Shown: piece after piece, positions 2,653 through 59,240 of the stretch
Numbering within the stretch: position 1 is the first letter of the stretch
Layout of the letters: each line of letters starts with the position of its first letter
Origin: Rufibacter latericius
GTDB taxonomy: Bacteria; Bacteroidota; Bacteroidia; Cytophagales; Hymenobacteraceae
Reading direction: 5' to 3'
Length of the DNA: 64,000 bases
Assembly: GCF_003721515.1 (NCBI RefSeq)
Contig: NZ_RJJD01000013.1
Location: forward strand, 62,001-126,000
Translations under genes and position numbers: made by a program
The notes under the pieces: generated by a model
What the model saw: only the letters and a program-made list of their open reading frames with translations
Database searches by the model: none
Told to the model about the DNA's origin: nothing

Positions 2653-2686
2653 CTAAGAGATTGGGTTTAGAGATGGTCAGGTTTGT

Positions 2687-9642: not shown

Positions 9643-10891
9643 CGGCCAGATGCCGGTAAGCGTTCTCCACCATTACAATAGCGTCATCCACGATCACCCC
9701 AATGGATAGGGCGATTCCGGTCAGGGACATGATGTTGGAGGTGATCCCGAAGGCGTTCAGCAGAATGAAACCGATGGCGATGGAAAGGGGAAGCTGAATG
9801 ATGATGATGAGCGCACTGCGCCAATGGAAGAGGAAAAGGAACACGATAAAGGACGCCACCAGCATCTCCTCTATAAGGGTGGTCTTGATGGAGTTTACTG
9901 ACTCATTGATGAGCCCGCTCCGGTCATAGACGATGTTGAACTTGACGCCCTTGGGCAAACCGGCGGAGACCTCCTCCATCTTGGTCTTGACGTTCCGGAT
10001 CACCTCCTCCGCGTTCTCGCCGTAGCGCATCACCACGATACCGCCCACGGCCTCGCCTTCCCCGTTGAGGTCGAAAATCCCCAGGCGGGTCTCCCCCGTC
10101 ATCTGCACGGTGGCGATGTCGCGCACGCTCACCGGGATGGAATTCTGGGTGGTGATGGGGATGTTCTCTATCTCCTCCGTGGATTTGAGATAGCCGGTGG
10201 TCTTGATGATGTAGCCGATGTCGCTCATCTCAAACTTACGGCCCCCGCTCTCGTTGTTGTTGGCCCGTACCGCTGCCATCACCTGCGGCACCGACAGGTT
10301 GTAATACGTCAGTTTGTTGGGGTCCACCGTGACCTGGTACTGCTTCTGGAAGCCCCCGAAGGAGGCGATCTCGCTCACGCCCGGCACGTTCTGGAGCGAG
10401 AACTTCACGTACCAGTCCTGGATGGCGCGCTGCTCGCCCAGGTCCATGCCTGGGGCCTCCAGCGTGTACCAGAGGATGTGGCCCACGCCCGTACCGTCCG
10501 GCCCCAGGGTGGGGATGGCTCCCTCCGGCAGCAGCCGGTTGGCGTAGTTGAGGCGCTCCAGCACCCGTTCCCGCGCCCAGTAGATATCGGTCTGATCCTG
10601 GAAGATAATGTAGATGAAACTCATCCCGAACATGGAAACGCCCCGCACATACTTCACCTGCGGCATGCCCTGCAGGTTGGTTACCAGGGGGTAAGTCACC
10701 TGGTCTTCGATGATCTGCGGGCTGCGGCCCATCCACTCGGTGAAGACGATGACCTGGTTTTCGGACAGGTCCGGGATCGCGTCCACCTTGTTGGTGGCCA
10801 CGGAGTAGACCCCCCAGCCGAACATGCCGGCCGCGATCAGCAGGACAATCATTCGGTTGCGCAGGGAGAAGGAAATCAGTTTAGCAATCAT
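9614..10891 (-). CDS. cusA: CusA/CzcA-type RND pump, N-terminal part
   Basis: 425 residues covering TM1 (FSLRNRMIVLLIAAGMFGWGVYSV), the first large periplasmic loop (ENQVIVFTEWMGRSPQIIEDQVTYPL) and TM2-TM4, ending after the conserved VDDAIVMVENAYRHLAD. A full pump would continue in the +1 frame into the next ORF. It lies 56 bases after the small metal-binding lipoprotein gene and starts the pump-TolC-adaptor run. The proton-driven pump would expel monovalent or divalent metal from periplasm or cytoplasm. Whether this half makes functional protein is uncertain. Confidence 0.85.
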   Translation of the reverse strand: MIAKLISFSLRNRMIVLLIAAGMFGWGVYSVATNKVDAIPDLSENQVIVFTEWMGRSPQIIEDQVTYPLVTNLQGMPQVKYVRGVSMFGMSFIYIIFQDQTDIYWARERVLERLNYANRLLPEGAIPTLGPDGTGVGHILWYTLEAPGMDLGEQRAIQDWYVKFSLQNVPGVSEIASFGGFQKQYQVTVDPNKLTYYNLSVPQVMAAVRANNNESGGRKFEMSDIGYIIKTTGYLKSTEEIENIPITTQNSIPVSVRDIATVQMTGETRLGIFDLNGEGEAVGGIVVMRYGENAEEVIRNVKTKMEEVSAGLPKGVKFNIVYDRSGLINESVNSIKTTLIEEMLVASFIVFLFLFHWRSALIIIIQLPLSIAIGFILLNAFGITSNIMSLTGIALSIGVIVDDAIVMVENAYRHLADAQTKENHG

Positions 10892-10947
10892 GCTCTGCAG
10901 GAAATGATCCCCCCGGCTGCTATGCCGGGAGGAAAGAATGGAAAGGA

Positions 10948-11229
10948 TTAATGCTGGTCGCCCGCTTGGTGCTCATGGGCGGCGGCGGCGGCGGAGTCCA
11001 GCTTTTCGCCGGGCTTCACCTCTTCCAGGAACATGCCGCATTTAGGGCATTTTCCGGGTTTGTCGCTTATTACCTCCGGGTCCATAGGACAAGTGTAGGT
11101 GACACCGGCTACCTGCTGGTTCGTCTCTGTTCCTTCGGCGGCTTTCTGCTCGGTGGCAGAACCGTTACAGGCGGAGAATAGGGTTAGGCCAAAAAAAGCC
11201 ACGGCAAGGGTTGATTTCAAGGTTCTCAT
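10948..11229 (-). CDS. Small heavy-metal-binding-domain lipoprotein
   Basis: A 93-residue lipoprotein: start at the ATG at 11229 giving [21 protein letters not shown] (lipobox FSAC), then a linker and one heavy-metal-binding domain (YTCPMDPEV...[11 protein letters not shown]). The frame is open further upstream, but the longer N-terminus spoils the signal peptide. It carries the same CPM(H/D)P...CPxCGM module as the two adaptors and is the first gene of the efflux operon, so it probably buffers or hands over metal in the periplasm. The tail is rich in Ala and His ([14 protein letters not shown]). Confidence 0.85.
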
Positions 11230-30024: not shown

Positions 30025-32016
30025 TTACTTAGATGCTGGTGCCGGGGCTTCCGCCTTTATCCTGGTCAGCTCCGCCTGGATCAGGTCTGCTATATCGGCT
30101 TTGATTTGCAGGTAGTTTTGTTGGATGATCTCCTCCATGCGGTCTCTCCCGGTTTCATCCGTGAAATTCGTGATAACGGGGATTTCCCGGTACGTACGTT
30201 CCTCTTCCTGCACCGCTTTGACATCGATCTTGATTTTCCCGTGGAATACCTTTTGGGTGATTTCCTGGCCCAGGTTATCCGCCACCGCCCCGACGAACAC
30301 TCCCTGGGACAGGTTGGCGATCTTACTGGCCGGGAGCATGCTGTCCAATTGGGTAGAGGTGGAGGAAGAGGTGGAATCCCGGCTGACGGACACGCTCTGG
30401 CGCTTCTGCAGGATCCGGCCGAATCGCTCCGACAGCTGCTTGGCGCTATCCCCTACCACCTGTCCCGAGAAAATATTCCCGATGGTATTCTTGATGACCG
30501 TGGCCTCGGCCCGGCCGTAATCCCTTTCCAATTGGGAAAAGTCCTGGAACCCCAATAACGTGCTCACCTTATTGCTTCGGGCGGTGGCAATCAGGTTATC
30601 CAGCCCTTTGAAGTAGATCGTCGGCAGCTCATCGATGATGACGGAGCTTTTCAGCCGGTGTTTCTGGTTGATCAGTTTGATGATCCGGGCATTGTACAGC
30701 CCCAGGGCCGCCCCGTAGACGGCTTGCCGATCGGGGTTGTTGCCCACGCACAGGACTTTCGGGGCTGCGGGGTTATTCAGGTCCAGCGTGAAGTCATTGC
30801 CGCTCATGACCCAGTAAAGCTGCGGGGAGGCCAGCCGGGACAAGGGGATCCGAGCACTGGCGATCTGGCCTTCCAGCTGTTCCATGGCCCCTCCCTCGAA
30901 CGCGGAGACGAAGGGCTTGACATAGTTCTCGATCTCCGGATAACTCCCCAGGATCGGGAAGATCTCCTCGTACTTCCGGCTCAGGAATTCGATGGCGTGG
31001 GGGAACGTACAGTACTTCCCGTTTTCATACAGCCGCAGGAACCAGATGATGGCCGCCAGGAAGTTGATCGGGGACTCTACGAAAAACTCCCCCTGCTTCT
31101 CGATCCATTTTTTATTCAGGTTGAGCATAATGGTATAGGAACTCTCGTAGGCATCGATGATATCGCTCATCATGGAGGGCAGGAGCGGATTACACCGGTG
31201 GCTCTTAGCTGGGTTGTCGAAGTTGATGACGTAAAAGGCGGGCTTTACGGGGTACTTGTCGTAGTTCCGCAGCAGGGTGTTGTAGGCGATGCGGGACAGG
31301 TCATCAAACTTGTAATCGTAAATGTACATGGCGAATCCCTTGGCGATGTGCTGCCTGATGAACTGGTTGACCACCGCGAAGGACTTCCCGGAGCCGGGTG
31401 TTCCGGTGACCCCAGTGGCTCGGAAGGGATTGACGACGTTGACCCACCCTTTTCTTTTTTTTCCCTTCCATTGGTACTCCGTGGGCAGGTTGACCGAAAA
31501 CTCATTTTCCAGCAACCCCTCCTCTTGGGGAAACGATTCGTTTTCGGCATTGAAGATATCCTTCATCAGGTCCGAGCTGAATAATCGGGACAGGTAATTC
31601 CCGCCCTTCAGGAGCAGCAGGTAGCCGAGGGCCAGGGTGCTGATGTAAAAAAAGGAATGGAGGGTGAGCTGGGGGAAGAGATGCAAAAGCAGGTCATTGG
31701 CGAAAAACAGCCCGGAACCCAGGAGAAAGTAGCCACCGATGCTTTTCCCGGAGACCTTCTCTGATTTGACGCCCTTGGTCCCCAGGCAGGAGATCCCCAG
31801 TAGCAGGAGGCAGGCCCCTTTGGAATAGAGGGGATCGGAGAAAAGCCCGCTTCCTTTCGCCAACTTCAGCAAAACGGAATCCAGGAAAGGGACCGTCCAG
31901 CCGTTGCCCTGGAAAGCGGAATAGCAAAACCAGTACACATGGATTCCGAGTAAAAAAATACTGAGGATCCGGGTGAAGTCCATCAGCTTGGATAAGGCTC
32001 TTTGATCTTCGTGCAT
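30025..32016 (-). CDS. mobC: MobC/TraG-type conjugative coupling protein
   Basis: 663 residues. The N-terminus bears the YWFCY motif (residues 28-32) that names this family of Bacteroidetes mobilisation proteins, with several membrane helices (to about 140). The cytoplasmic ATPase has Walker A GTPGSGKS (205-212) and Walker B in SVIIDELPTIYF, followed by the Gln-containing motif LLGFQDFSQLERDYG of VirD4 proteins. It would bring the relaxase-DNA complex to the type IV secretion channel. A -7-type promoter lies 78 bases upstream, at 32094-32101. Confidence 0.92.
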   Translation of the reverse strand: MHEDQRALSKLMDFTRILSIFLLGIHVYWFCYSAFQGNGWTVPFLDSVLLKLAKGSGLFSDPLYSKGACLLLLGISCLGTKGVKSEKVSGKSIGGYFLLGSGLFFANDLLLHLFPQLTLHSFFYISTLALGYLLLLKGGNYLSRLFSSDLMKDIFNAENESFPQEEGLLENEFSVNLPTEYQWKGKKRKGWVNVVNPFRATGVTGTPGSGKSFAVVNQFIRQHIAKGFAMYIYDYKFDDLSRIAYNTLLRNYDKYPVKPAFYVINFDNPAKSHRCNPLLPSMMSDIIDAYESSYTIMLNLNKKWIEKQGEFFVESPINFLAAIIWFLRLYENGKYCTFPHAIEFLSRKYEEIFPILGSYPEIENYVKPFVSAFEGGAMEQLEGQIASARIPLSRLASPQLYWVMSGNDFTLDLNNPAAPKVLCVGNNPDRQAVYGAALGLYNARIIKLINQKHRLKSSVIIDELPTIYFKGLDNLIATARSNKVSTLLGFQDFSQLERDYGRAEATVIKNTIGNIFSGQVVGDSAKQLSERFGRILQKRQSVSVSRDSTSSSTSTQLDSMLPASKIANLSQGVFVGAVADNLGQEITQKVFHGKIKIDVKAVQEEERTYREIPVITNFTDETGRDRMEEIIQQNYLQIKADIADLIQAELTRIKAEAPAPASK

Positions 32017-32219: not shown

Positions 32220-34661
32220 TTACCAACGCAAGCGCCGGCGCCTTTTCCGCTTCTGCTCCGGCCGGTGTTCCTCCTTCTCCCCTTGCTCGTTCCCGAAGAC
32301 GGCGTCGGCGAAATTACGGAAGAGAATCCCCAAACTCTCCAGCAAACGGGCCCCGTGGGTTGATTCCGCCCGGTAAAGGCTGGTCAAGGAGGCATTCTGG
32401 CTCGGCTCCCGCAAGGTATCGGACGGGTATTCCGCTATTTCCTTTCGGATGAGGGGAATCAGATCGGTGGCCTGGAGCATTCCTGCCCCGGGGTCTTTCC
32501 GGTTTCGGGGCAGGTTTTCCGCCAGGTGTTTCTCTATTTGGTTGGCCAGCGGTTTATTTATCCCATGGATGAAACGTAGGACGCGGTGGGTAGCTTTTAG
32601 GTCATTCCGTTGGAGGGCTTGGCTCAGGGAGACCAGAAGGCGGTACTTAGGGGACACGGTGACTTCCCCGGTTTGCGATTCCCGGAAGACGAGACGCTTG
32701 ACGCTGGCCTCGGTTTCCGGGTTGAAGCCATGGGATTTCAGCAGGTTCGCCAGCGACGCTCCCGCTTTTACAAAGGTGCTCTCCGGCAGCGTATGGTACC
32801 CGAGGTGGTACGCCACCGGCTCCCCTCCCCTTCCGGGGACCGGTTTGATGAGCAACCCGTTTTCCAGCAGATAAGAGAGGGTCTGGGGGTAGTCCAGGCC
32901 TTTGTCCATCCCTTGGTAGACCCCGGCGGCATAGTCCCGGTTGGCGTGACTCAATAGCAGATGCCGGTCCGCTTTGGAGAGGAAAGGTAGGATGGGGGAA
33001 CGATCCAGTTGCCCCATCCGCTCCCCTAGCCGCAACGTACCGTACTGCCGCTCTTCCGGGGCCTGGCTCATGGTTTTGAGGATCTGCCGGTCCATTTTAT
33101 GGAACACCGGGATCCCCCCTTCGGACACCGTAAGTTTCCCAAGGATGGCCGGCACGCCCAGCAGTTGGAAAAGGGTCGTATTCGGCACGGTATACCCCAC
33201 CTCGGGACTCTTGGAGGAGTGGATGAGCAGGTCCTCCCCTTTCTGGGAAAACGTGATGTGGAGGGCGTACAGGAAGCTTAGCTTTTGGCGCAGGCTCAGT
33301 TCCCCGTTGGATTGGACATAGTGGAGCAGAGGCGGCGTATTCGCCTGGAAATACCCGTTCTCTTTCTCCTGTACCTGGGGCAATTGCCGTTGCCGGTATT
33401 CCATGAAATTGCTGACCGCCAATTCGGCTTGCTTCCCCTCCAGCTGGGGAACCTGTTTTAGTAATTGCAACGCAAAGGCCCCTTTTAACTGCGGCAAGGC
33501 GTTGATGAGGCTGCTTTCAAAGAAATAGTTTTGGTCTGTTTTCCGGTAGCCATTGTAAATACGCACCAGTTCCTGGTTCGCCTGCTGCAGGTCAGGGCGG
33601 GACAAAGTCGCTTCGGCAAACCGTTGGCCTAGGTAAGGAGCGGAATACGCGGTGCCCAAAGCCTGGCTATCTAAAACGGTTTTCGTGTGGGCGTCGATAT
33701 AGGTGAGGCTGGCCAGGCCCTTCTCCCCGCCCTCCCGGCAGATGACCTGTATTTCCTGCTCCTGTAGCCTTTCCTTGAAATGAGCCAGGGTGAGGTACGG
33801 ATAGGCGGTTAGAACGGTCTTTATCTTGCCGCAGAGGGTAGCTTTAACGTGGCTTTCGGTTATCTTTTGCCCGTCTTCGGTGAACTTGGCCGACAGGGCG
33901 GGCCAGCCGACCTCTTTCCCGATGCTGCTGGCTTTGATCCTGCTGCCGACCCTCTCCCCTACCGGGTTGATGATTCCGTAAAACAACCCCAGCGTCTTGC
34001 TAGGATCGTTGGGGTCGGTTACCTCGTCCACGGTCACGTGGTACTGGTTCAGCAGGGCTTTGTATTCTGCCAGGGAGGAAAACCGATACTCCCGGGTGGC
34101 GGAGCGCACCACGGCGGCGATGGCGCTTTTCGTGTCCGTCTTGCCGTACTCGATGGCCCGGACATCAATCGGCTCAAAGACATTTCTCCCATTGGGTATC
34201 TTCTCGCCGGCGGGCACCAACCCGTATTTCGCCTCCAGGTCTTTCCGGATCTCTTCCGACCGGTACCGGTCTTGGCTGCTGGGGATGGCTTTGCCGTCCA
34301 GGCCCACGCTGACCGAGACGAGGTGCAGGTGGGTCCGCTCGATGTCTTCGTGCTTGTAGATGAGGTAGGGTTGCTGGCCGTAGTTCATCCGCTCCAGATA
34401 CTCCCGGGCGATCTCCGTCAGCTGCTCGTCGCTGAGTCTGTCCTCCGGGTCTGGGTTCAGGGAAACATGGAAGGTCGGCTTACTGATCTTCGGGTTCAGC
34501 CGGAGATAGGCCTGCAGCCCCTGGATCTTGTCCTGCAGCGTCAGCTCCTCCGGGTCCTTGAGGTCATTGATCAACTGCGCGTACAAGACGCTGGAGTGCT
34601 CCTTCTCATTGTACTTGAGCAGACCGACGATGTCTTTGCCTCGAATTATCCTTGCAACCAT
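32220..34661 (-). CDS. mobB: MobB relaxase
   Basis: 813 residues. The relaxase domain is N-terminal: FHVSLNPDPEDRLSDEQL (64-81), then YKHEDIERTHLHLVSV (102-117), the three-His metal site (H104, H111, H113) of MOB-type nucleases. A tyrosine for strand cutting is expected near the N-terminus (Y17 or Y27). The rest is a long, poorly conserved C-terminal region ending in a basic tail (EQKRKRRRRLRW). It nicks oriT and pilots the strand. Its start overlaps the end of mobA by 16 bases. Confidence 0.9.
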   Translation of the reverse strand: MVARIIRGKDIVGLLKYNEKEHSSVLYAQLINDLKDPEELTLQDKIQGLQAYLRLNPKISKPTFHVSLNPDPEDRLSDEQLTEIAREYLERMNYGQQPYLIYKHEDIERTHLHLVSVSVGLDGKAIPSSQDRYRSEEIRKDLEAKYGLVPAGEKIPNGRNVFEPIDVRAIEYGKTDTKSAIAAVVRSATREYRFSSLAEYKALLNQYHVTVDEVTDPNDPSKTLGLFYGIINPVGERVGSRIKASSIGKEVGWPALSAKFTEDGQKITESHVKATLCGKIKTVLTAYPYLTLAHFKERLQEQEIQVICREGGEKGLASLTYIDAHTKTVLDSQALGTAYSAPYLGQRFAEATLSRPDLQQANQELVRIYNGYRKTDQNYFFESSLINALPQLKGAFALQLLKQVPQLEGKQAELAVSNFMEYRQRQLPQVQEKENGYFQANTPPLLHYVQSNGELSLRQKLSFLYALHITFSQKGEDLLIHSSKSPEVGYTVPNTTLFQLLGVPAILGKLTVSEGGIPVFHKMDRQILKTMSQAPEERQYGTLRLGERMGQLDRSPILPFLSKADRHLLLSHANRDYAAGVYQGMDKGLDYPQTLSYLLENGLLIKPVPGRGGEPVAYHLGYHTLPESTFVKAGASLANLLKSHGFNPETEASVKRLVFRESQTGEVTVSPKYRLLVSLSQALQRNDLKATHRVLRFIHGINKPLANQIEKHLAENLPRNRKDPGAGMLQATDLIPLIRKEIAEYPSDTLREPSQNASLTSLYRAESTHGARLLESLGILFRNFADAVFGNEQGEKEEHRPEQKRKRRRRLRW

Positions 34662-35086
34662 TTTTCCCTTAGCTGAAGTAAAAGTGCGTGGAATTCACTT
34701 TGCGCCTTCCCCAGTTGGGCGGTCAGCTCCACCAGCTTGGCCACTTCGGGGGGCACGGGCCTCCCGTCGGTCAGGGAATTTATCTTCTTGACGACCTGGT
34801 TATAGTTCGTCCCGATGGCCTTGATCTCCCGGACCAGGTGCTGCATCTCCGTGGCCAGCAGCACGTTCGTGCTGTCCCGCAGGGCGAGCTTCTGGTGGAA
34901 CATGAGATCATGGTACATCTCGGATTTATGCCGGTAGGCAGACTGCCGGAACCAATCGTCCAGTTTTTTATAATCCTTCTCGGTGACCCGGAACTTGATT
35001 TCTTCGGAGGCCAGGTCCTGCGGGGGCTTGGGCTTCCGCCCGCCCCGCCCCTTCTTTTTCTCGAGTGGTTTCTCTTCCTTTTCCAT
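34646..35086 (-). CDS. mobA: MobA-type relaxosome accessory protein
   Basis: 146 residues. The N-terminus is basic and low-complexity (KEEKPLEKKKGRGGRKPKPPQ). The following KFRVTEKDYKKLDDWFRQSAY resembles a ribbon-helix-helix entry, and IGTNYNQVVKKINSL is the signature of Bacteroidetes MobA/MobC relaxosome proteins. It should bind oriT DNA and assist the relaxase. It is the first gene of the mob operon, and the upstream 1.1-kb 4-bp-periodic array is the likely place of its target. Confidence 0.85.
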   Translation of the reverse strand: MEKEEKPLEKKKGRGGRKPKPPQDLASEEIKFRVTEKDYKKLDDWFRQSAYRHKSEMYHDLMFHQKLALRDSTNVLLATEMQHLVREIKAIGTNYNQVVKKINSLTDGRPVPPEVAKLVELTAQLGKAQSEFHALLLQLREKWLQG

Positions 35087-35292
35087 GGGCGTGTTCTTTC
35101 ATGACGACGGCGGCAAAGCGGTTTTCCTCCTGGCATTAGCGACCTCTGAGAGAACCGGTTTTAGTTTTTGTGGAACAAAAACATATCTTGCTTTTTGCTG
35201 ACGCAAAACATACCTCTTTATACTGAAAGTACCAAGGGATGGTTGAGTAGATTTTAGAAAGCGTGCCGGGAAACCATTACAACAGAGGCTTT

Positions 35293-36400
35293 ACAGCGAT
35301 GTAAGTAGTTAAGTAGTTAACTAACCACAAAAGTAAGTAGTTAGGCAGATAGGTAAAGGGATATGTATCTACTTAGGGAAGCAAGTAAACAATTGGGAAA
35401 CAAAAGACTTATCTGTACCTTCGGGGATCCAAACGGGTAAGTAGATAGACAAACAGATAGTTAAGTAAATAAGTAGATAGGTACTTAACCAAGTAGACAA
35501 ATAGCTATTTTGGAAAGCACGTAAATAGATAGTTAAGTAGAAGTCTACATCGATAGCGAACCATCTACTTAGACAGACAGGTAACCATCTACTTATATGG
35601 GTATTTAGCGAGCTAAGTATAAAGCGAAGCAAGTAAACCGGCAAATAAGTAAATAGATATGTGGATATATAGAGAAACAAGTGCTTAGCCAATTAAATAA
35701 ATAAACATATAACCCATTATCTACTTACCCAAGCCACCTTATATACATTTAAACATCCACTTAGATATACAACTGGACAGATATCTATTTGCATACCTAC
35801 TTATACAAGTAAACAGATAAGTAAGTAGTTCGCTAAACAAGTAAACCGACAATTAAACAAGCAAGTACATAGATAAGCAAGTAGACAGACATCTAAGTAA
35901 CTATCTTTAAAGATAGGTAGACAGACAAGTAAACATCTAAGGAGCTATATAGGTATTTATTCTTATACTTGCTTAGACAAATAAGTAATTAGAGGGTTAA
36001 GTAACCACTTATACAAACAGATAAGTAACTACCCATGTAAATAAATACTTATATAAATAGTTAGACAACTAGATAATTAAGTAGGCAGGCAAAGGGCTAA
36101 AAAGATAAACAAGTAAATAGACAGCTAAGTAGGTAAGTAAAAAGAGAAGTAAGTAGGTGAGTAAATAGAGAAGCAAGTAGGTAAGTAAATGAAGAAGTAA
36201 GTAGGTACCTATTCAGTTATCTAAGCAAACAGGTATATGGGTACTTAAGCAGTTATACAACTAAGTAGGCAGGAAAATAAAAGCCGCTGGAAGTACAGAA
36301 GTGGCCACGTTAACAAGTAGGCATTTAAGCAAACAAGTATCTATCTACTTACTTGTCTAGATAGACAAGTAAGTAGACGGTTAAGTAAGTAGAAAAGCAA
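35293..36400. repeat. 1.1-kb non-coding array with strict 4-bp phase (NYAN tetrads)
   Basis: Cutting the sequence into tetrads from 35293 gives A in the third place of 243 of 277 tetrads (my hand count, 88%), mostly with T or C before it, such as GTAA, GTAG, ATAG, ACAA, ACAG. No phase slip occurs over 1,108 bases, so a TpA or CpA step recurs every 4 bp. AAGTA occurs about 42 times and TACTT about 11. Order beyond the tetrad is not repeated, so it is not a simple tandem repeat. The pattern starts and stops sharply between mobA and parA. It holds no gene: an open frame at 35369-35692 (minus) is only the translated repeat. Best guess: oriT or partition site. Confidence 0.85.
36344..36377. repeat. 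34-bp palindrome upstream of parA
   Basis: TCTACTTACTTGTCTA (36344-36359) and TAGACAAGTAAGTAGA (36362-36377) are perfect 16-bp arms with a 2-bp centre. It ends 32 bases before the parA start codon and lies inside the 4-bp-phased array. Candidates: operator of parA, centromere element, oriT nick-region hairpin. Confidence 0.8.
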
Positions 36401-36409
36401 AAGACAATA

Positions 36410-37153
36410 ATGACGAGAGAAACGAAATTTATTTCATTTTTTAACCAGAAGGGGGGAGTGGGTAAATCTACCCTGGAGATTTTGATGGCCAGCTACTGCC
36501 ACAATGTGCTGGGGTTGAAGGTGGCCATCCTGGATGCGGACTATCCCCAGCTGAACATCCATAAGCTAAGGGAAGATGAAATCAACATGGTGCGTAAAAA
36601 CGAAGCCTACCAGCAGGCCTTTGCCGGCCTGGGCAAACCGGTGTACCCGATCGCGAACACCAACCCGGCCGAATCCGTGAAAGAGATGGATATCTTCCTG
36701 GAATTGGAAGCAGGGGAGGAGCCGTACGATATTGTCTTCGTGGATCTGCCGGGTACCATCAACACGCCCGGGGTGCTCCAAACCATCAGCCAGCTGGACC
36801 ACATTTTCATTCCCCTGATAGCGGACCAGCTCGTGATCAAAAGCAGCCTCGAATTCGGCTTACTGGTGAATGATAACCTGATTGGGAAACCGAACGTCAA
36901 CCTGAAGTCCCTTCATTTCTTCTGGAACAATGTCGTCAAGTCGGAAAAGTCAAACCTGTATGACGTGTCCAATTCCGTGATCGGGCAAGCCGGGTTAAAC
37001 TGCCTGAAGACCGTGATCGGCCAAAGCGTGAAATTCAGGAAACCTGAGTTCAGGTCCACCATCTTCCCGATGCAACCCGCCCTCATCAAGGACACCAACA
37101 TGGTCCCGTTGATTGAGGAAGTCTTAGCGCAAATCAATGTCTCCCCTAGATAA
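36410..37153 (+). CDS. traA: ParA-family ATPase, TraA
   Basis: 247 residues with the deviant Walker A NQKGGVGKST (12-21) including the signature lysine, ILDADYPQLN (about 40-49), and the DLPGT Walker B-type segment (FVDLPGTINTPG). This is the MinD/ParA fold. In Bacteroidetes conjugative elements the first tra gene encodes such a protein. It follows the 34-bp palindrome by 32 bases and overlaps a possible early start of traB. No ParB gene was found. It might segregate the element or position the transfer machine. Confidence 0.88.
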   Translation: MTRETKFISFFNQKGGVGKSTLEILMASYCHNVLGLKVAILDADYPQLNIHKLREDEINMVRKNEAYQQAFAGLGKPVYPIANTNPAESVKEMDIFLELEAGEEPYDIVFVDLPGTINTPGVLQTISQLDHIFIPLIADQLVIKSSLEFGLLVNDNLIGKPNVNLKSLHFFWNNVVKSEKSNLYDVSNSVIGQAGLNCLKTVIGQSVKFRKPEFRSTIFPMQPALIKDTNMVPLIEEVLAQINVSPR

Positions 37154-37166
37154 CATAATAAACAAG

Positions 37167-37667
37167 ATGGCAAAGAACAGAAAGAGCCCAGCATTTGATG
37201 AAAGTCTCCTGATTGGAAGCATCAGCGGTTTGAACAGAAACAAAGAGGCGGCCCCCGAACCGTCAGCGGCTCCGCAACCGTCGGCGCCTACTGAGCCCTT
37301 ACCCCCGGAGGAAGTCCCTCCGTTGGAAAACAAGGCTACGCCGGAACCCGAGAGGAGGGAAGCCCCGGCAAGCACCCTGGAACCAGGCGAGGGGGAAAGC
37401 AAAGGAAAGAAAGAACCGAAACCGGCCGCTACCGCCAAATCCCAGGGAAAGCGTTGGGAATACGGGCGTTTCCTTCAAGCTACCCCGGGCCGCAAAGAAG
37501 CCCGGGCCTACATCTCGGAAACCCACCACAACAAATTAAGGAGGATCCTGGCCTTCACGGACAAGAAAATCGCCCTCGCTGATTATCTGGAGAATGTGCT
37601 GGAGGAACACTTCGAGCAATACGAAGCCCAGATCAAAGAACTATACGGAAAGCACCTGGGAAGCTAA
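37167..37667 (+). CDS. traB: DUF3408 protein, TraB
   Basis: 166 residues from the ATG at 37167; a start at 37137, overlapping traA, is also open. The N-terminal half is Pro/Ala/Glu-rich and disordered; the C-terminal part (AYISETHHNKLRRILAFTDKKIALADYLENVLEEHFEQYE) is the DUF3408 helical domain, with ribbon-helix-helix-like character. It partners ParA in the tra clusters of Bacteroidetes elements and may be the DNA-binding partner in place of ParB. A strong terminator follows, so traA-traB form a two-gene unit. Confidence 0.82.
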   Translation: MAKNRKSPAFDESLLIGSISGLNRNKEAAPEPSAAPQPSAPTEPLPPEEVPPLENKATPEPERREAPASTLEPGEGESKGKKEPKPAATAKSQGKRWEYGRFLQATPGRKEARAYISETHHNKLRRILAFTDKKIALADYLENVLEEHFEQYEAQIKELYGKHLGS

Positions 37668-49715: not shown

Positions 49716-51764
49716 ATGGAAACACTTATCAATAAGTATAAGAGTAGTGTCCCTAAGATTGGCCTGTTGGTGGCGTTGGCCGCCGGTACCATGCTGCAAA
49801 GCTGTAGTAACTCTGGAGAGGGTGGCGGTGGCAATGCCAAGGACGGCGCCATTGCCGCAGATGCTGCTACGGCGGTGTATGTGGCTCCTGGCAAGCACGA
49901 CGAGCTCTACTCGTTCCTTTCAGGCGGCTTCAACGGCCAGGTGTCTGTTTACGGGATTCCTTCTGGCAGGCTGCTCAAGGTGATCCCGGTTTTCAGCCAG
50001 TTTGCCGAGAACGGCTACGGCTACAATGAGGAAACCAAGCCCATGCTGATGACCTCGCACGGCTTTGTGCCCTGGGATGACCTCCACCACCCCAAACTTT
50101 CCCGTGCGAACGGAACGGCGGATGGCCGCTGGCTCTTCGTAAACGGGAACAACACCCCCCGTGTGGCCCGGATAGACCTGAAAACGTTTGAGACGGTGGA
50201 GATCATGGAGATCCCTAACTCTGCCGGTAACCACTGTTCGCCCTATCCCACCAACAACAACGAATACATTATCGCGGGTACCCGCTTCAGTGTACCGCTG
50301 GACATGAAAGGTGGTACCGCTGATGCAAGTCTGTCGGATTATAAAGACAAGTTCAGAGGATCCATTTCCTTTATAAAGATGGATCCGGGGCATGGCGACA
50401 TGAAACTGGATTTCCAGGTGCTGGTGCCCGGCTTTGACTATGATCTAGCCAACGGCGGCAAAGGGCCATCAGAAGACTGGGTATTCTTCACTACCTACAA
50501 CACAGAGAAATCTGGTACCTTGAAGGAGCTGGGCGCCTCGCAGAACGACCGCGATTACCTGGCAGCCATCAATTGGAAATTAGCGGCCAAGTATGCCAAA
50601 GAAGGCAAGACGCACGAAATGCCCGCCAACTACTACCACAACAAGATGGACCATGGCTCACATACCGCCAAATCTAACGTAATAAAAAAGGTGCGTTACC
50701 TGCTTCCGGAGGAGTGCCCGGGCATGATGTACCTGATTCCGGCGCCTAAGTCGCCGCACGGCATTGACGTAGACCCAACTGGCGAGTTTATGGTGGTAAA
50801 CGGCAAGCTGGCCTCTTCACTGCCGGTGTTCTCTTTCTCCAAGATGCAGAAAGCCATCAAGAACAAAGACTTTGACGGGGAAGTGAACGGTATTCCGGTG
50901 TTCAAGTATGAGTCTGTGCTGCACGCCGAGGTGAAAGAGCCGGGCTTAGGGCCCTTACACACGGAGTTTGACGGGAAAGGCAATGCATACTCCACCATGT
51001 TCGTGTCTTCTGAGGTGGTGAAATGGAGCCTGAAGGACTTCAAGGTGAAGGACAGGATCCCCGTGTATTATTCCCCTGGCCACTTAATGATCCCAGGCGG
51101 CGATACCAAGGAACCGTACGGCAAGTACCTCATCGCGATGAACAAGATCACGAAAGACCGCTACCTGCCCACCGGCCCCGAGTTGATGCACTCCGCCCAA
51201 CTGATTGACATCAGCGGGGAGAAGATGAAGCTGCTCCTGGACTTCCCTACCCTGGCCGAACCGCACTACGCGCAGGGTATTGCCGCCAGCAAGATTGCGC
51301 CTAACAGCGTCAAGTTCTTCAAGTTGGACGAAAACACGCACCCTGATGCCGTGAAGAACGAGAAAAGCGTGAGTGTGACCCGTAAAGGCAAAACGGTGAA
51401 AGTGAAAATGACCTCCATCAGAAGCCACTTCACACCTGATAACATTGAAGGCATACAGGTAGGCGACACCGTGCTCTTCCACGTAACCAACCTGGAGCAG
51501 GACTGGGATGTGCCGCACGGTTTTGCCATCATGGGGGCCAACAACGCGGAGACGCTGATCATGCCGGGTGCTACCCAAACCCTGCGGTGGGTGCCTAAAG
51601 CGGAGGGTATTTTCCCCTTCTACTGTACAGACTTCTGCTCTGCCTTGCACCAGGAAATGCAGGGGTACGTGCGGGTTTCCAAAAAGGGATCTACCGTTCC
51701 CATAAAATTCTCAACCGGGGTCAAAAAACCGGTGCCTCCGGCCTCCGCCTATTTAAGTAAGTAA
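49716..51764 (+). CDS. nosZ: Nitrous-oxide reductase, clade II, lipoprotein type
   Basis: 682 residues. The N-terminus has a Sec/lipoprotein signal (GLLVALAAGTMLQSC) rather than a Tat motif, which marks clade II NosZ. The first 550 residues are the seven-bladed propeller holding the CuZ cluster (SHGFVPWDDLHHPKLSR, then NAGNHCSPYPTNN-type segment; here SAGNHCSPYPTNN). The C-terminal cupredoxin bears the CuA site: DVPHGFAIMG and CTDFCSALHQEMQGYV. It reduces N2O to N2. A terminator follows at 51782. Confidence 0.95.
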   Translation: METLINKYKSSVPKIGLLVALAAGTMLQSCSNSGEGGGGNAKDGAIAADAATAVYVAPGKHDELYSFLSGGFNGQVSVYGIPSGRLLKVIPVFSQFAENGYGYNEETKPMLMTSHGFVPWDDLHHPKLSRANGTADGRWLFVNGNNTPRVARIDLKTFETVEIMEIPNSAGNHCSPYPTNNNEYIIAGTRFSVPLDMKGGTADASLSDYKDKFRGSISFIKMDPGHGDMKLDFQVLVPGFDYDLANGGKGPSEDWVFFTTYNTEKSGTLKELGASQNDRDYLAAINWKLAAKYAKEGKTHEMPANYYHNKMDHGSHTAKSNVIKKVRYLLPEECPGMMYLIPAPKSPHGIDVDPTGEFMVVNGKLASSLPVFSFSKMQKAIKNKDFDGEVNGIPVFKYESVLHAEVKEPGLGPLHTEFDGKGNAYSTMFVSSEVVKWSLKDFKVKDRIPVYYSPGHLMIPGGDTKEPYGKYLIAMNKITKDRYLPTGPELMHSAQLIDISGEKMKLLLDFPTLAEPHYAQGIAASKIAPNSVKFFKLDENTHPDAVKNEKSVSVTRKGKTVKVKMTSIRSHFTPDNIEGIQVGDTVLFHVTNLEQDWDVPHGFAIMGANNAETLIMPGATQTLRWVPKAEGIFPFYCTDFCSALHQEMQGYVRVSKKGSTVPIKFSTGVKKPVPPASAYLSK

Positions 51765-51781
51765 TTTCTTCAAACTAAAAA

Positions 51782-51822
51782 GACAGCGGAGGTTTCTACA
51801 TAGACTCCGCTGTCTTTTTTTT
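51782..51822 (+). terminator. Terminator between nosZ and downstream nos genes
   Basis: GACAGCGGAG (51782-51791) pairs with CTCCGCTGTC (51805-51814), 13-nt loop, then eight T residues. It lies 18 bases past the nosZ stop. Confidence 0.9.
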
Positions 51823-51844
51823 ATTTCACCTTAACCTAAAAAGG

Positions 51845-52444
51845 ATGACCGCTTACCACAGAGGATTGATGGTTCTCGCCGCCTTGTCGCTAGGCCTTTT
51901 GTTTCTCTTCCCTATGTGGAAGATCTACCTGGAAGCCCCCCAATACCCCGAGGGGCTGGAACTGCACATTTGGGTTAACAAACTGGGCGGTAGTACGGAA
52001 GGCGTGCTTCAGAATTTCAACATCCTGAACCATTACATCGGCATGGCGCCCATCCATCCAGAATCTTTTGCCGAACTAAGAGTCATGCCCTACATCGTAG
52101 TCATTCTGATGGTAACGGGCGTAATTGTGGCTTTCCTGGGAAAAAGGAAACTGATCTTAGGTTGGGTAGTTCTGCTGATGCTGGGGGGAGCCGTTGGGTT
52201 ACTGGACTTTTACCTGTGGTTGCACGAATTCGGGACTAACCTTAACCCCCAGGCGCCTATCAAAGTACCGGACATGACCTATATCCCCCCCATGCTGGGC
52301 AGTAAGCAGCTTCTCAACTTTAATGCGTTGTCGTTGCCCTCTTGGGGAAGTCTGGGTATCTTACTGGCTGTCATATTTGCCTGGTTGGTGTATTATCTAA
52401 GCTCCAAGCCTAAGGGCAAAGAATCAACTCCCTCTTTATCATGA
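51845..52444 (+). CDS. Membrane protein of the nos cluster
   Basis: 199 residues, four hydrophobic helices (LMVLAALSLGLLFLFPMWKIYL; MPYIVVILMVTGVIVAFL; LGWVVLLMLGGAVGLLDFYLWL; LGILLAVIFAWLVYYL) and conserved-looking periplasmic segments (LEAPQYPEGLELHIW; LNHYIGMAPI; KVPDMTYIPPMLGSKQLLNF). Homologues typically sit between nosZ and nosL/nosD in Bacteroidetes. The role in NosZ maturation or electron supply is inferred from place alone. Overlaps nosL by 4 bases. Confidence 0.75.
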   Translation: MTAYHRGLMVLAALSLGLLFLFPMWKIYLEAPQYPEGLELHIWVNKLGGSTEGVLQNFNILNHYIGMAPIHPESFAELRVMPYIVVILMVTGVIVAFLGKRKLILGWVVLLMLGGAVGLLDFYLWLHEFGTNLNPQAPIKVPDMTYIPPMLGSKQLLNFNALSLPSWGSLGILLAVIFAWLVYYLSSKPKGKESTPSLS

Positions 52445-52908
52445 AACAAATTTTTTCCCTCCCCTATGGCTGGCTGGTGCCAGCCGTTTTGTTGCTTACG
52501 GCCTGTTCAACGGAGCCCAAGCCGGTCCCTTACGGCAACGCCAACTGCACGCATTGCAGCATGACCATTACGGATGTGCGGTACGGGGCCGAATTGGTGA
52601 ATGACAAAGGCAAGCCTTCCTTCTTTGACGCGGTGGAATGCCTGGCGGCCTATGTCAACCGTAAGCCGGAAGAAGGCCGAAAAGCCTCTTTTCTGATGGT
52701 GACTGATTTTTCAAACCCTACAGAACTCATACCGGTAAACAGCGCCCATTTCGTGCGGAGCGCAGCTTTGCCCAGCCCTATGGGCATGAACCTATTGGCC
52801 GTTTCAACGCAAGAGGCCGCCAGGAAAATACAGCAGGAGCAGGGTGCAGAGCTGCTCACCTGGGGTCAGGTGCTGGCAATTGTAAAGAATGATGAGAAAC
52901 TTCACTAA
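52441..52908 (+). CDS. nosL: NosL copper chaperone lipoprotein
   Basis: 155 residues with lipobox (LLLTAC) and the NosL signature NCTHCSMTITDVRYGAELV (Cys-x2-Cys-x-Met near residue 35), which binds Cu(I). It delivers copper for NosZ maturation together with NosDFY. Starts within the end of the previous gene (4-base overlap) and its end overlaps nosD by 20 bases. Confidence 0.9.
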   Translation: MKQIFSLPYGWLVPAVLLLTACSTEPKPVPYGNANCTHCSMTITDVRYGAELVNDKGKPSFFDAVECLAAYVNRKPEEGRKASFLMVTDFSNPTELIPVNSAHFVRSAALPSPMGMNLLAVSTQEAARKIQQEQGAELLTWGQVLAIVKNDEKLH

Positions 52909-54217
52909 AAGGGTACTGACAGCAGCAAGTATTCTGCTGCTGTCAGTACCCGGCCAAAGCGCGGCAGGGGCCAACGTCATGGTGTGCAAAACCTGCGCCC
53001 TTACGTCTGTGAAGCAGGCGGTGCTGCAGGCCAAGCCCGGCGATACCGTGCTGGTGAACGGCGGCGTGTACCAAGAATCAAAGATAGAGATAGACAAGCC
53101 CCTCACCTTGATCGGGAAAAACAACCCGGTCATTGATGGCAACTTCACGGGGCTGCTTATCGCGGTAACCGCCGATAACGTGATTATCCAGGGGTTCACC
53201 CTCAAAAACGTGGCCACCAGCTATTCCAGAGACGATGCCGCCATTCGGGTGTTTCAGCGCAGCAATATCAAAATTCTGGATAACACCATCCTGAAAACCT
53301 ACTTCGCGATCTACCTGCAAAACTCAGACCAGATCGTAATCAAGGGGAATACCATCAAAGGAGAGAACAAGGACAGGACCGAGTCTTCCCTGGGCAACGC
53401 CATCAATCTGTACTACACAGACAATGTGGAGATAACCGACAACGAGGTGCAGGGCCACCGCGACGGCATTTACCTGGAGGTGGTGAAGAACAGCCAGGTG
53501 CACCGCAACATCAGCCACCAGAACATGCGCTACGGGCTGCATTTCATGTTCTCGGACGGAAACACGTACACGCATAACACCTTCCGAAACAATGGGGCGG
53601 GCGTGGCTGTGATGTACACCACCGGTGTCCGGATGGAGCACAACACCTTCGAGGAGAACTGGGGCGCGGCCTCCTACGGCCTCCTGCTCAAGGACATCAG
53701 CAACAGTGTCATCCACCACAATACTTTCCGGCGCAACACCACCGCCATCCACATGGAAAGCTCCAGCCGGCTGGATATAAAGAATAACGATTTTGAGCGG
53801 AACGGCTGGGCTATCAAGGTGATGACCACTTGTATAGAAGACACTTTCCGGCTGAATAATTTCACCGGCAACTCCTTTGACGTGAGCACCAACGGCAGCA
53901 TCCAGGAAAACCACTTCGAGCATAACTACTGGGACAAGTACACGGGCTATGACCTGGACAAAGACCAGAAGGGTGATGTGCCCTACCGCCCCGTAAGTTT
54001 GTTCTCCATGCTGGTGGAGCGGGTGCCGCCGGCAGTGATGTTCATGCGCAGCTTTATGGTAGACCTGCTGGACAACCTGGAGAAAGTGCTGCCGAGCATT
54101 ACCCCCGAACAACTGGTTGACAGACAACCGCTGATGAAGAAGATACACCATGATAACGATAGAAAAATTGCGCAAGTCCTACGGCAAGCTACAGGTGCTC
54201 AACAACGTGAGCATTGA
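52889..54217 (+). CDS. nosD: NosD periplasmic maturation protein
   Basis: 442 residues with a signal peptide (RVLTAASILLLSVPGQSAAG) and CASH-type right-handed beta-helix repeats (for example NIKILDNTILKTYFAIYLQ; NVEITDNEVQGHRDGIYLE; GLHFMFSDGNTYTHNTF). It acts with NosF and NosY in maturation of the copper-sulfur cluster of NosZ. The end overlaps nosF by 68 bases, longer than usual; the last 20-odd residues may have been added by loss of an earlier stop. Confidence 0.92.
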   Translation: MMRNFTKRVLTAASILLLSVPGQSAAGANVMVCKTCALTSVKQAVLQAKPGDTVLVNGGVYQESKIEIDKPLTLIGKNNPVIDGNFTGLLIAVTADNVIIQGFTLKNVATSYSRDDAAIRVFQRSNIKILDNTILKTYFAIYLQNSDQIVIKGNTIKGENKDRTESSLGNAINLYYTDNVEITDNEVQGHRDGIYLEVVKNSQVHRNISHQNMRYGLHFMFSDGNTYTHNTFRNNGAGVAVMYTTGVRMEHNTFEENWGAASYGLLLKDISNSVIHHNTFRRNTTAIHMESSSRLDIKNNDFERNGWAIKVMTTCIEDTFRLNNFTGNSFDVSTNGSIQENHFEHNYWDKYTGYDLDKDQKGDVPYRPVSLFSMLVERVPPAVMFMRSFMVDLLDNLEKVLPSITPEQLVDRQPLMKKIHHDNDRKIAQVLRQATGAQQREH

Positions 54218-54857
54218 GTTTGAGGCAGGCAAAGTCATATCCATCATAGGCCCTAACGGGGCCGGTAAAACAACATTAGGCAAGTGCATTCTGGGCATGG
54301 TCCTGCCCGACAAGGGCGACATCCGGCTGAACGGCGAAAGCGTGCTCAACAAACACGCGTACCGCAGCCAGATTGGGTATATGCCCCAGATTGGGCGCTA
54401 CCCCGAGAATATGAAAATCCGGCAAGTGATAGAGATGGTGCGGGATATCCGCAAAGACGGCATAGGGATGGATGAGGAACTGCTTGGCTTATATGGGCTG
54501 CCCGCTATGTACGACAAACGCATGGGTGCCCTCTCTGGCGGCACCAAGCAGAAGGTGAGTGCGGCGCTGGCGTTTATGTTTGACCCGCAGGTGCTGCTGT
54601 TGGATGAGCCCACCGCCGGGCTAGACCCCATCTCCGCCGAGATCCTGAAAGAAAAGATCCTGAGGGAGAAAAAAAAAGGGAAACTGATCCTCCTCACCTC
54701 GCACATCATGAGCGAGGTGGAGGAGGTGGCCGACGAGGTGCTGTGCCTGGTGGAGGGCAGCGTGAAATTCCACGAGACCATCGCCCGCCTGAAGGAGCAG
54801 ACCAACGAGGAGCGCCTGAGCCGGGCCATCGCCAAAATCATGAACGAGGAAAACTAA
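54150..54857 (+). CDS. nosF: NosF ABC-transporter ATPase
   Basis: 235 residues with Walker A GPNGAGKTT (about 32-40), signature LSGGTKQKVSAALAF, and Walker B LLLDEPTAGLDP. It pairs with the permease NosY and the periplasmic NosD to supply sulfur species for NosZ. Starts inside the end of nosD and ends 3 bases before nosY. Confidence 0.93.
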   Translation: MITIEKLRKSYGKLQVLNNVSIEFEAGKVISIIGPNGAGKTTLGKCILGMVLPDKGDIRLNGESVLNKHAYRSQIGYMPQIGRYPENMKIRQVIEMVRDIRKDGIGMDEELLGLYGLPAMYDKRMGALSGGTKQKVSAALAFMFDPQVLLLDEPTAGLDPISAEILKEKILREKKKGKLILLTSHIMSEVEEVADEVLCLVEGSVKFHETIARLKEQTNEERLSRAIAKIMNEEN

Positions 54858-54860
54858 GCC

Positions 54861-55628
54861 ATGCGCAAGATCATCAAGTACGTGCTTTACGACATCGTCA
54901 GAAGTAAAATCATCATCGCCTACACCTTGTTTCTGCTGTTGCTCTCCATCGGCTTGTTCAACCTGGGCGGCAGTGCAGATAAGGGCTTGCTGAGTCTGCT
55001 GAACCTGGTGCTGCTCACGGTGCCGCTCATCAGCGTTGTGTTTGCCACCACCCACTTTTACAACTCCTATGAGTTCATGGAACTGCTGGTGGCCCAGCCC
55101 ATAGACCGCCGGAAGATTTTCCTGAGCGAGTACCTGGGCGTGGCTTTCTCGCTCTCGGCCGCTTTTCTGGTGGGGGTGGGCGTTCCGGTCCTGCTCTTCG
55201 GGGCCAGCCTCACGGGGGTATACCTGGTGCTGACGGGCGTTTTCATCACCTTCATCTTCGTGGCGATGGCGTTCCTGGCCTCGGTGATCACGCGCGACAA
55301 GGCCAAGGGCATCGGCATTGCCCTGTTGCTGTGGTTTTACTTCGCATTGATTTATGATGGTATTGTGCTGTTCATCCTGTATTCCTTCGGTGATTACCCA
55401 TTGGAGTACGCCACTCTGGCGATGACTGCCCTGAACCCCGTCGACCTGGGCCGCATCCTGGTATTGCTGAACCTGGATGTCTCGGCCCTGATGGGGTACA
55501 CCGGTGCTTTGTACAAAAGCATTTTGGGCAGCCTTTGGGGAATTTCCCTGGCGTTCGGGTTATTGGTGGTGTGGGTGTTAGCGCCCTTGCTGTGGGCCAG
55601 GAGAATATTCTCCAGAAAAGATATCTAA
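54861..55628 (+). CDS. nosY: NosY ABC-transporter permease
   Basis: 255 residues and about six membrane helices (for example IVRSKIIIAYTLFLLLLSIGLF and LLSLLNLVLLTVPLISVVFA; GIGIALLLWFYFALIYDGIVLF). The family is the ABC-2-type permease of NosY, partner of NosF. It is the last gene of the nosL-D-F-Y run and is followed by a long perfect hairpin. Confidence 0.92.
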   Translation: MRKIIKYVLYDIVRSKIIIAYTLFLLLLSIGLFNLGGSADKGLLSLLNLVLLTVPLISVVFATTHFYNSYEFMELLVAQPIDRRKIFLSEYLGVAFSLSAAFLVGVGVPVLLFGASLTGVYLVLTGVFITFIFVAMAFLASVITRDKAKGIGIALLLWFYFALIYDGIVLFILYSFGDYPLEYATLAMTALNPVDLGRILVLLNLDVSALMGYTGALYKSILGSLWGISLAFGLLVVWVLAPLLWARRIFSRKDI

Positions 55629-55640
55629 GGCAAAGTGGTC

Positions 55641-55680
55641 TTTGCCCTGGCCTGTTTATGGAAAAACAGGCCAGGGCAAA
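55641..55680. terminator. Perfect 17-bp hairpin after nosY
   Basis: TTTGCCCTGGCCTGTTT (55641-55657) and AAACAGGCCAGGGCAAA (55664-55680) with a 6-nt loop. No T tract follows. Its place 12 bases past the nosY stop suggests terminator or 3' stabilising function. Confidence 0.6.
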
Positions 55681-55840
55681 ATAAAGGCCATGGGCACGGC
55701 CCTGCTTTGCCGGGGAAAGGTGTTATGTTGGTGGAGAGGTGGCCTCGCACAGCATGATGGGTGCCATTGTATCCCTTAAGGCAAGATGGCACTACTGGGT
55801 AAACAGTTTCAAATGAATGTGTTCCCAGAGCCCTTGCTTT

Positions 55841-56270
55841 ATGGAATCCCTTTTGATAGTAGCTTCTTTAGCTGGTCCGCATCTGCCCTGCACCTCGCCA
55901 GATGCTCCCGCAACCAGTCCGGAAACCGCCCATGCCGCCCATGCGGAACCTGCTTCCACCCATGGCCTTGCGCTGAACGGGAAGAGCGCTGGAAAGCAGA
56001 TGAGGCCACCAAAGCGAACCTGCGGCACCAACAAGCAGCCAAAACCGATTCCCTGCCTTAAAGGAGCTGGGGCAGGGTTTGCAGCATGGGTTCAAGGAAG
56101 TGTTTGCCGACTGCCAAATGAAAGGCCCGCCACACGACATGCTGCACACGTACCTGATGCCTATGCTAGCGGATGTGAAAGTGCTGAGGGGCAATGACCT
56201 GACAGCCGCCGCCAAGTCCCGCAACCGCCTGGCCCTGCCCCCGGGCCAATACCAGCGCCATTCCAAATAA
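55841..56270 (+). pseudogene. Frameshifted small exported protein
   Basis: Three consecutive frames give one continuous protein: MESLLIVASLAGPHL... to ...HGLALNGK (from 55841), then ERWKADEATKANLRHQQAAKTDSL (about 55978-56055), then LKELGQGLQHGFKEVFADCQMKGPPHDMLHTYLMPML...YQRHSK (to 56270). The whole resembles the small Bacteroidetes periplasmic proteins with an LNxGxxWKxN opening and a late CxMKGxxHDxLHxxLxP segment, function unknown. Two single-base shifts interrupt it, so it is a pseudogene or carries sequencing errors. It follows the nos genes. Confidence 0.65.
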
Positions 56271-56615
56271 TGCCTATAAAAGCGATAACCGATACTAGCC
56301 TCAGCCGAAGGCAAGGTCTGATCGGTTACCGCTGTTTACTCTGGTGGTGTTGGCTTTCAACTGTCTTTAGTTGTTTTCGGCCTGAGGGGTAGCAAAATAA
56401 GTTATTCTGTCAGTTATGGCAGTTCCGGAGGGCGGTACTGGGCTGTTGGATTCTCCCGCCTAAGCAAACACCGAAAGTCACTTCAAAAGTTTAGACAGCA
56501 CTGTCGTGGTCTTTGACTTCGGCAGAATCAGAGCTTGAATTTCCCGTAATGGTTTCAGGGAAAGAGGCCTAGAACGGCTTCCGCTCCTGAAAACTACTTT
56601 AGATGGAAATACTTT
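56271..56615. other. Gap between pseudogene and norZ
   Basis: 345 bases without an open frame of quality. It holds the 3' ends of two convergent genes. No clear terminator hairpin or repeat was recognised. Confidence 0.4.
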
Positions 56616-58910: not shown

Positions 58911-59240
58911 AAAAGTGAGTTTAAGTATAAAAAAATGCGCGCAGCCTATAGAATACAAACAGGGTAAATAGGAGTACTACCGCCCTGAAACTTGAGAATA
59001 GACGCCTTTTGCCACTCATTTTAAATATTGCTAGTGGTAAATATTGTTGTCAATAAGGTTGAATTGAAACTTAGGCAATTGTGAATTCCCATTCGGTTAC
59101 CATTCCAAAGGTCATATTCGGGCCAAGGAAGGGAAATGACAAAAGTCATCTATAAAAGAGTTATATATCTTTTATTAACCTATGTCTGCACTTTACTTTT
59201 AACTCCTAGAGGAGCCTAGGCAAAGTGCTTAGGAAAACAA
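58911..59240. other. Divergent control region of norZ and the 59241 gene
   Basis: 330 bases without a gene, AT-rich. The ATGA-N6-TCAT dyad (59136-59149) lies here, 226 bases from norZ and 92 from the plus-strand gene. No second dyad was found. No terminator. Confidence 0.5.
59136..59149. promoter_or_regulatory. Crp/Fnr-type dyad in norZ divergent region
   Basis: ATGAC-AAAA-GTCAT, a perfect 5-bp dyad, with the same ATGA-N6-TCAT frame as the site before the nos genes. Confidence 0.55.

Follow-up and report, generated by a model that had tools for sequence, protein, structure and literature searches.

The 1108 bases between mobA and parA in the window (the whole 64,000-nt stretch of Rufibacter latericius DNA analysed here) form an array in which A recurs at nearly every fourth position. 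We consider that this array is probably a centromere-like site of the type Ib kind, a lattice of tetrads that would be coated by the DUF3408 protein TraB and moved by the ATPase ParA, a reading built on sequence comparison. As such it would probably be the handle by which elements of this sort are delivered to daughter cells or to the conjugation machinery.

The four-base lattice

Counted as tetrads from 35293 to 36400, the array has A at the third position in 243 of 277, a figure identical to the hand count given in the original prediction. The base before it is usually T or C, as had also been noted, with a pyrimidine at position 2 in 247 tetrads (T in 175, C in 72). The commonest form is RYAR (122/277), and its reverse complement, YTRY, accounts for 29/277. 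None of 2000 mononucleotide shuffles put more than 146 A into a single phase. The array lies where it was first placed, 206 bases from mobA (start 35086) and with 9 bases between its end and parA (36410). In the Fourier spectrum of the interval, period 4 has a power of 56.0 and its harmonic, period 2, a power of 70.5; the next listed peak is only 1.95, and the value at exactly period 8 is 3.1. The period-4 peak that had been anticipated is therefore present, but it is not the single peak expected, since periods 4 and 2 both dominate. For 200-bp Fourier windows across the 64 kb, the best value outside the array was 3.7, compared to 14.9 within it, and the leading phase was identical in all 40-bp windows scanned from 35281 to 36381.

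Tetrad similarity showed no excess at any lag from 1 to 20 (top z 1.8), which implies a lattice of interchangeable words and not a higher-order repeat, a 24-bp tandem block excepted. The best 240 bp of the array gave no 8-bp superperiod (log10 p -0.8), and across the whole array the 8-bp component is weak (log10 p -3.1). Coding sequence was rejected as a source of the array, as the original prediction had argued, the period-3 signal being absent; a 107-aa antisense ORF at 35369-35692 was taken to be a by-product of the lattice. Ordinary iterons were likewise rejected, again in keeping with the prediction, as the repeat families are just 60-88% alike and are spaced by multiples of 4. A simple sigma-70 scan gave fewer hits than shuffles do.

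Change in the array between close relatives

When the array DNA was compared to 59 genomes, matches were found only in its own genome and in two of the same genus (loci L033 and L034, 73-74% identical), and the three sequences can be aligned over the entire mobA-parA gap. The alignment gaps are of 4, 24 and 48 bp in the main array, 16 bp at the mobA-side edge and 4 bp in the parA-proximal part. Gaps of 1 and 2 bp occur solely at about 36270-36290 and outside the array. The claimed lack of any phase slip holds in the window but is partly luck, as both relatives shift by 1 bp at about 36270-36290. On either side of that shift lie the main array and a shorter segment of approximately 90 bp next to parA, the latter with a 34-bp inverted repeat.

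Substitutions are unevenly distributed over the tetrad. Between the window and the two relatives, position 3 differs at 33/230 and 28/229 sites (12-14%), and each of the other positions at 59-69 of 229-230 (26-30%), approximately double the rate. T-C exchanges make up 46/69 and 42/65 of the differences at position 2. Between L033 and L034 themselves position 3 is less protected, with 34/229 differences (15%) against 48-57/229 elsewhere (21-25%). Identity to the relatives is 69% at 35440-36260, 89% in the mobA flank and 96% at 35389-35438. From these alignments, selection thus appears to preserve the lattice, the words themselves changing more rapidly than the flank or the conserved island. The suggested origin, a tetranucleotide repeat whose indels were all multiples of 4, is compatible with the gap sizes, but the position-specific substitutions are those of a maintained sequence and not of a decaying one.

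Parts of the array and neighbouring genes

Two local features depart from the plain lattice: a stretch at 35389-35438 which fits the phase poorly, and the tandem block at 36111-36207. The main lattice (35293..36269, + strand) has approximately 244 tetrads, and its commonest words, GTAA, GTAG, ACAA and ATAG, are of the RYAR form. The poorly fitting stretch (35389..35438) is the conserved island whose mean identity to L033 and L034 is given above. Both relatives carry TACCTTTG there and the window carries TACCTTCG. We take TACCTTTG to be a promoter-like match to TAnnTTTG, and the 50-bp island may be a promoter candidate. The 24-bp tandem block (36111..36207, + strand) contains or adjoins 48 bp missing in L033 and L034. 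A lattice break or spacer, where the relatives change phase, occupies 36270..36310 and is followed by the parA-proximal lattice (36311..36400, + strand); 36335-36409 is 90% identical to the relatives. A perfect inverted repeat of 34 bp, with arms of 16 nt set 2 nt apart, lies within it at 36344..36377, and this proximal lattice would be operator-like.

The parA gene (traA; 36410..37153, + strand) encodes a ParA-type ATPase of 247 aa with its Walker A motif inside the first 21 residues and no N-terminal extension, ie a short ParA lacking the N-terminal DNA-binding domain, as in type Ib systems. Directly downstream, its start overlapping the end of parA, is traB (37137..37667, + strand), which encodes a small DUF3408 protein with a predicted flexible N-terminal tail, again the type Ib arrangement. 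On the other side of the array, all on the - strand, are mobA (34646..35086), a relaxosome accessory protein gene (MobC_2 over cut-off; NikA-like and Bacteroid_MobA below it), mobB (32220..34661), the relaxase gene (Relaxase over cut-off), and mobC (30025..32016), for the coupling protein (Bacteroid_MobC over cut-off). Between mobA and the array, at 35164-35208, two short inverted repeats seen by eye flank CTTGC. This segment is a candidate oriT and lies outside the array. A [GT]CTTGC motif is present near mobA in 8 of 17 mobA-parA gaps of relatives, a count that has no chance baseline, and a search of the 17 gaps for shared oriT words gave little above shuffles.

The element carrying the array

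The ends of the contig that includes the window (166,891 bp) overlap by 88 bp, which is the pattern expected of a circular plasmid assembled from k-mers. The contig carries the only Rep_3 match in the genome, no match to Phage_integrase and a single match to AAA_31, which is this ParA. From its sequence it looks like a circular Rep_3 plasmid of about 167 kb, and a low-copy plasmid of that size is expected to need partition. The region 49716-58958 of the window holds nosZ, the gene for a Sec-dependent nitrous-oxide reductase, whose neighbours resemble, by eye, nosD, nosF and nosY and a quinol-type nitric-oxide reductase; by eye these look like denitrification cargo on a plasmid bearing conjugation genes. 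Genes at 1-11000 resemble heavy-metal or RND efflux genes, also by eye.

Lattices upstream of related parA genes

All loci were scored alike, by the dependence of base on phase at periods 2-13 in 200-bp windows up to 700 bp upstream of ParA, and a lattice was called where the larger of z4 and z8 exceeded 7. The z-scores are maxima over windows and so are to be read against the controls; several of the loci are drafts. A 4- or 8-bp lattice was found upstream of this type of ParA in 62/67 loci and at none of 58 control ParA loci, where the highest score was 6.0 and the top period was never 2, 4 or 8. Lattices were present in 29/30 loci of the same family (the window included; these being the 30 best of the matches found in 123/200 genomes, and the exception is L016), in 8/12 loci from named genomes (exceptions L040, L046, L047 and L048), in 5/5 plasmid loci, and in all 20 loci from a phylum-wide draw of 395 genomes, the weakest with a z of 7.6. 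The draw, at E 1e-30, listed 22 loci from 18 of the 395 genomes, and the window and L121 were left out. The loci from named genomes are L037-L048 (E up to 7e-24), and the controls are the weaker matches L049-L107, less L056, which was too short. The sets overlap, in that some of the genomes contain the same plasmids as the named records. Period 2, the harmonic of 4, was the top period in 3/30 family, 1/12 named, 5/20 phylum and 0/58 control loci.

No clear lattice was seen, then, in 5/67 loci (L016, L040, L046, L047 and L048). L047 and L048 have ParA and DUF3408 without a 4- or 8-bp lattice; by eye, repeated GAGTCAAA-like words stand in the lattice's place in L047. Away from ParA in the longer positive loci, 0/1981 windows scored above z 8. 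Among the control loci 9/3712 did so, all in L050, L052 and L073 and more than 1 kb from ParA. These three loci, from Bacteroidales genomes, have a 4- or 8-bp periodicity there with z of 8 to 15, and L073 has a strong 11-bp period too.

The search of related elements put forward with the original prediction found the lattice recurring beside this type of ParA, each element with its own word: GTAA/GTAG in the window, GCAA in L039, TCAC/GTGA in L118 and TATACTTT in L112. Boxes spaced at 8 bp are of the CTTC type in L025 and L030, and of GTAA in L007. By threshold, an 8-bp component is present in 28 of 63 arrays; the other 35 are pure 4-bp lattices.

Relatives of the window ParA were found at 97 places in 95 plasmid records. 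In the annotated plasmids the mob genes come first, followed by the array, parA and either DUF3408 or a small gene without a name, and in 8 of the 11 annotated plasmid stretches examined tra genes (DUF4134, traG) lie further downstream of the module. In L117, mob is accompanied by ParA, DUF3408 and a weak 8-bp lattice (z 8.2), and the annotation shows no tra gene over the 7 kb downstream. L120 is a stretch of a Hymenobacter plasmid whose mob system is a different one. Its ParA is a distant relative with an 8-bp lattice (z 11.4) upstream, and its incomplete gene table lists no tra gene within 7 kb. A clean TCAC/GTGA lattice (z4 24.0) occupies 6385-6940 of L118, a Spirosoma plasmid; the downstream protein resembles, by eye, a classical ribbon-helix-helix protein, and the locus is a good experimental model. 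In L109 (Bacteroides fragilis p214_V8GG_COL1) two consecutive DUF3408 genes follow ParA and differ in their strand regions, and the additional binding protein may recognise another word.

Covariation of array words with TraB

The product of the gene after parA usually has a tail and a strand-helix-helix-like segment, as judged by eye, and by models for the window protein. Eight of 10 full-length proteins encoded downstream of parA exceed the DUF3408 cut-off, and 28/32 downstream proteins match DUF3408 at E up to 10. The AlphaFold model of TraB (pLDDT 69) has an extended-helix-helix topology at the C-terminus, and the C-terminal domain may have a ribbon-helix-helix fold. Confidence is low over approximately residues 1-120, and the flexibility of the tail is a prediction. 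Foldseek with this model gave no useful match. A PDB sequence search for DUF3408 returned nothing with one protein and only chance-level rows with a 32-row profile. Profile alignment of TraB with MobA, in the same register, gave E 0.038, and a control against ParA gave E 0.081. DUF3408 was found at one locus in viral contigs; tblastn in plasmids gave no match, though the ParA relatives there carry annotated DUF3408.

Similarity of array 4-mer profiles was compared, pair by pair, to protein identity. Seven loci had been excluded beforehand (L016, L040, L046, L122, L113, L114 and L117, the last three being two repeats and a contig from a viral collection). From the 70 loci taken, seven were dropped: L011 (no ParA found by the script), L023, L025 and L116 (no downstream ORF), L120 (not alignable, removed by hand), and L047 and L048 (no lattice). 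MobA was found for 52 of the remaining 63 arrays, and removal of three near-identical loci left 49. Close pairs were those with ParA identity of at least 0.6, a limit picked after seeing the data, which gave 129 pairs with 44 of the 49 loci in 8 clusters.

Among close relatives the array words follow TraB, and not MobA or ParA. For the close pairs, r with array similarity was 0.833 for TraB, 0.823 for the TraB strand region, 0.479 for MobA and 0.402 for ParA. The partial r of TraB given ParA and MobA was 0.747, a value reached by 0/2000 within-cluster permutations of the 129 pairs; the corresponding values were -0.001 for MobA (1146/2000) and 0.119 for ParA (223/2000). Linkage by itself would favour ParA over TraB, because parA sits between the array and traB. 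One pair, L130 and L131, has ParA proteins that are 90% identical, unrelated arrays (r 0.02) and unlike TraB strand regions. Over all 1326 pairs of the 52 loci, a partial Mantel test gave 0.077 for TraB (25/500), 0.079 for MobA (34/500) and 0.128 for ParA (2/500), ie TraB explains the words no better than MobA or ParA across the full set, where the words are taken to be saturated. This result, like the lattice-like windows in the control loci, weighs slightly against the centromere reading.

Within TraB, columns around the strand score above the rest in the close pairs (mean 0.43 vs 0.21, p 0.0002) and also under a looser pair limit (0.17 vs 0.10 elsewhere, p 0.03). When pairs were taken down to a ParA identity of 0.45, the strand region did no better than the remaining TraB (partial 0.337 vs 0.404), and the strand residues presumed to face the DNA did not, taken together, rank highest among the columns in either pair set. 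From the covariation, we infer that TraB recognises the array. Escape from shared compatibility would be expected to produce this pattern, in which words and TraB diverge together and ParA changes little.

Known systems and alternative explanations

Type Ib systems have a small ribbon-helix-helix binding protein with a flexible tail, which is also a repressor, and a centromere of short repeats (PMC7308502, PMC5016525). In these accounts parH of TP228 consists of degenerate tetramer boxes with AT-rich spacers, and the order of centromere, ParA-type gene and small-protein gene in ParF-ParG-parH resembles that of array, parA and traB here. The earlier view that no described element has this design was nearly right: parH has tetramer boxes with spacers (PMC7308502), but a contiguous 4-bp lattice was not found in the literature search, nor was such a use in Bacteroidota transfer loci. 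The boxes of parH are separated by spacers, whereas the window tetrads are contiguous over approximately 1.1 kb without a clear 8-bp component, so that the window does not show spacing of the parH type; of the 63 arrays of its relatives 28 have an 8-bp component. The arrays also depart from type Ib in that the 35 pure lattices have no spacer component and in that the site adjoins transfer genes.

Other partition systems show partial likenesses. In omega/parS of pSM19035 a ribbon-helix-helix protein acts on short-repeat arrays, direct and inverted (PMC5016525). The omega/parS genes, however, are not in one operon. The parS repeats of pSM19035 are said to be heptads, compared to 4 bp here. The srpMRC system of SXT/R391 ICEs is likewise a partition system on conjugative elements and active there (PMC4489591), but its ATPase is of the actin type, another class. 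Each ParMRC family of the Clostridium perfringens conjugative plasmids has its own binding protein and its own centromere, and these appear to determine compatibility (PMC9426499), although they belong to type II systems with other proteins.

The main rival to partition is a role in transfer. In Agrobacterium, VirC1 is ParA-like, VirC2 has a ribbon-helix-helix fold and overdrive lies beside the nicked border; the likeness is that of a ParA-like protein and a ribbon-helix-helix protein with a site beside the transfer origin, and the difference is that overdrive is shorter and acts in transfer. By analogy, TraB would coat the array beside oriT and ParA would bring the element to the mating channel, with segregation secondary or absent. 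The window-type gene neighbourhood fits such an enhancer in the annotated plasmid stretches, where tra genes follow the module in 8/11, and an adjacent oriT is suggested by the inverted repeats seen by eye and by CTTGC near mobA (8/17 gaps, with no chance baseline). On the other hand, L117 and L120 have a lattice and ParA with no annotated tra gene nearby, and the window plasmid contig has no AAA_31 match other than this ParA. We regard a transfer device of this kind as unlikely, although both roles may apply, given that active partition systems are known from ICEs (PMC4489591). It counts against partition that the module usually adjoins tra genes, even in possibly integrated elements, where segregation would be relevant only after excision.

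It is less probable still that the array is simply a large operator, through which TraB silences tra and mob promoters and ParA tunes TraB. The array does sit between the divergent mob and tra genes, both relatives have a promoter-like TAnnTTTG in the conserved island, and type Ib binding proteins double as repressors (PMC5016525); but 277 tetrads over approximately 1.1 kb would be far beyond the need of an operator, and the constant ParA motor would be left unexplained. The original prediction offered use as oriT or centromere among other possibilities. Centromere is the best fit, and oriT is very improbable for the array itself. The array adjoins mobA, and MobA resembles NikA-like DNA-binding proteins, below the family cut-off; however, given ParA and TraB the words have no link to MobA in close relatives (partial r -0.001 for MobA, an indirect measure), and the possible oriT inverted repeats, seen by eye, are beside mobA and outside the array. 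A functionless tetranucleotide repeat in neutral decay can scarcely be entertained: gaps in multiples of 4 and the local 24-bp tandem block do point to slippage-like growth, but conservation is position-specific, the lattice is associated with one type of ParA, and its words covary with TraB.

The anatomy matches that of type Ib systems, which leads us to propose TraB as the protein that coats the lattice and ParA as its motor. In this proposed centromere, TraB would recognise the 4-bp words and coat the lattice through its C-terminal strand-helix-helix domain, probably of ribbon-helix-helix fold, and its flexible N-terminal tail would engage the ParA ATPase. ParA would then carry the TraB-coated DNA across the nucleoid, and both daughter cells would thereby receive a low-copy circular element. 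The lattice segment next to parA, which includes the 34-bp palindrome, may double as an operator at which TraB represses parA-traB.

Implications

We put forward, more tentatively and as a suggestion that could well fail, a class of centromere spread over the whole phylum and built on a unit of four contiguous base pairs, in which DUF3408 would read every tetrad. Its evolvable word code, switching with the strand region, would determine how the conjugative plasmids and integrative elements of Bacteroidota fall into compatibility groups. The centromere reading offers a testable role for DUF3408 and for the ParA gene that heads Bacteroidota tra clusters, in a phylum to which many gut bacteria, with their conjugative transposons, belong, and it suggests that such elements are actively positioned. 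It would also offer a rule to predict which elements can share a cell, and dozens of natural pairings of protein and word with which to study four-base reading in an unbroken lattice.
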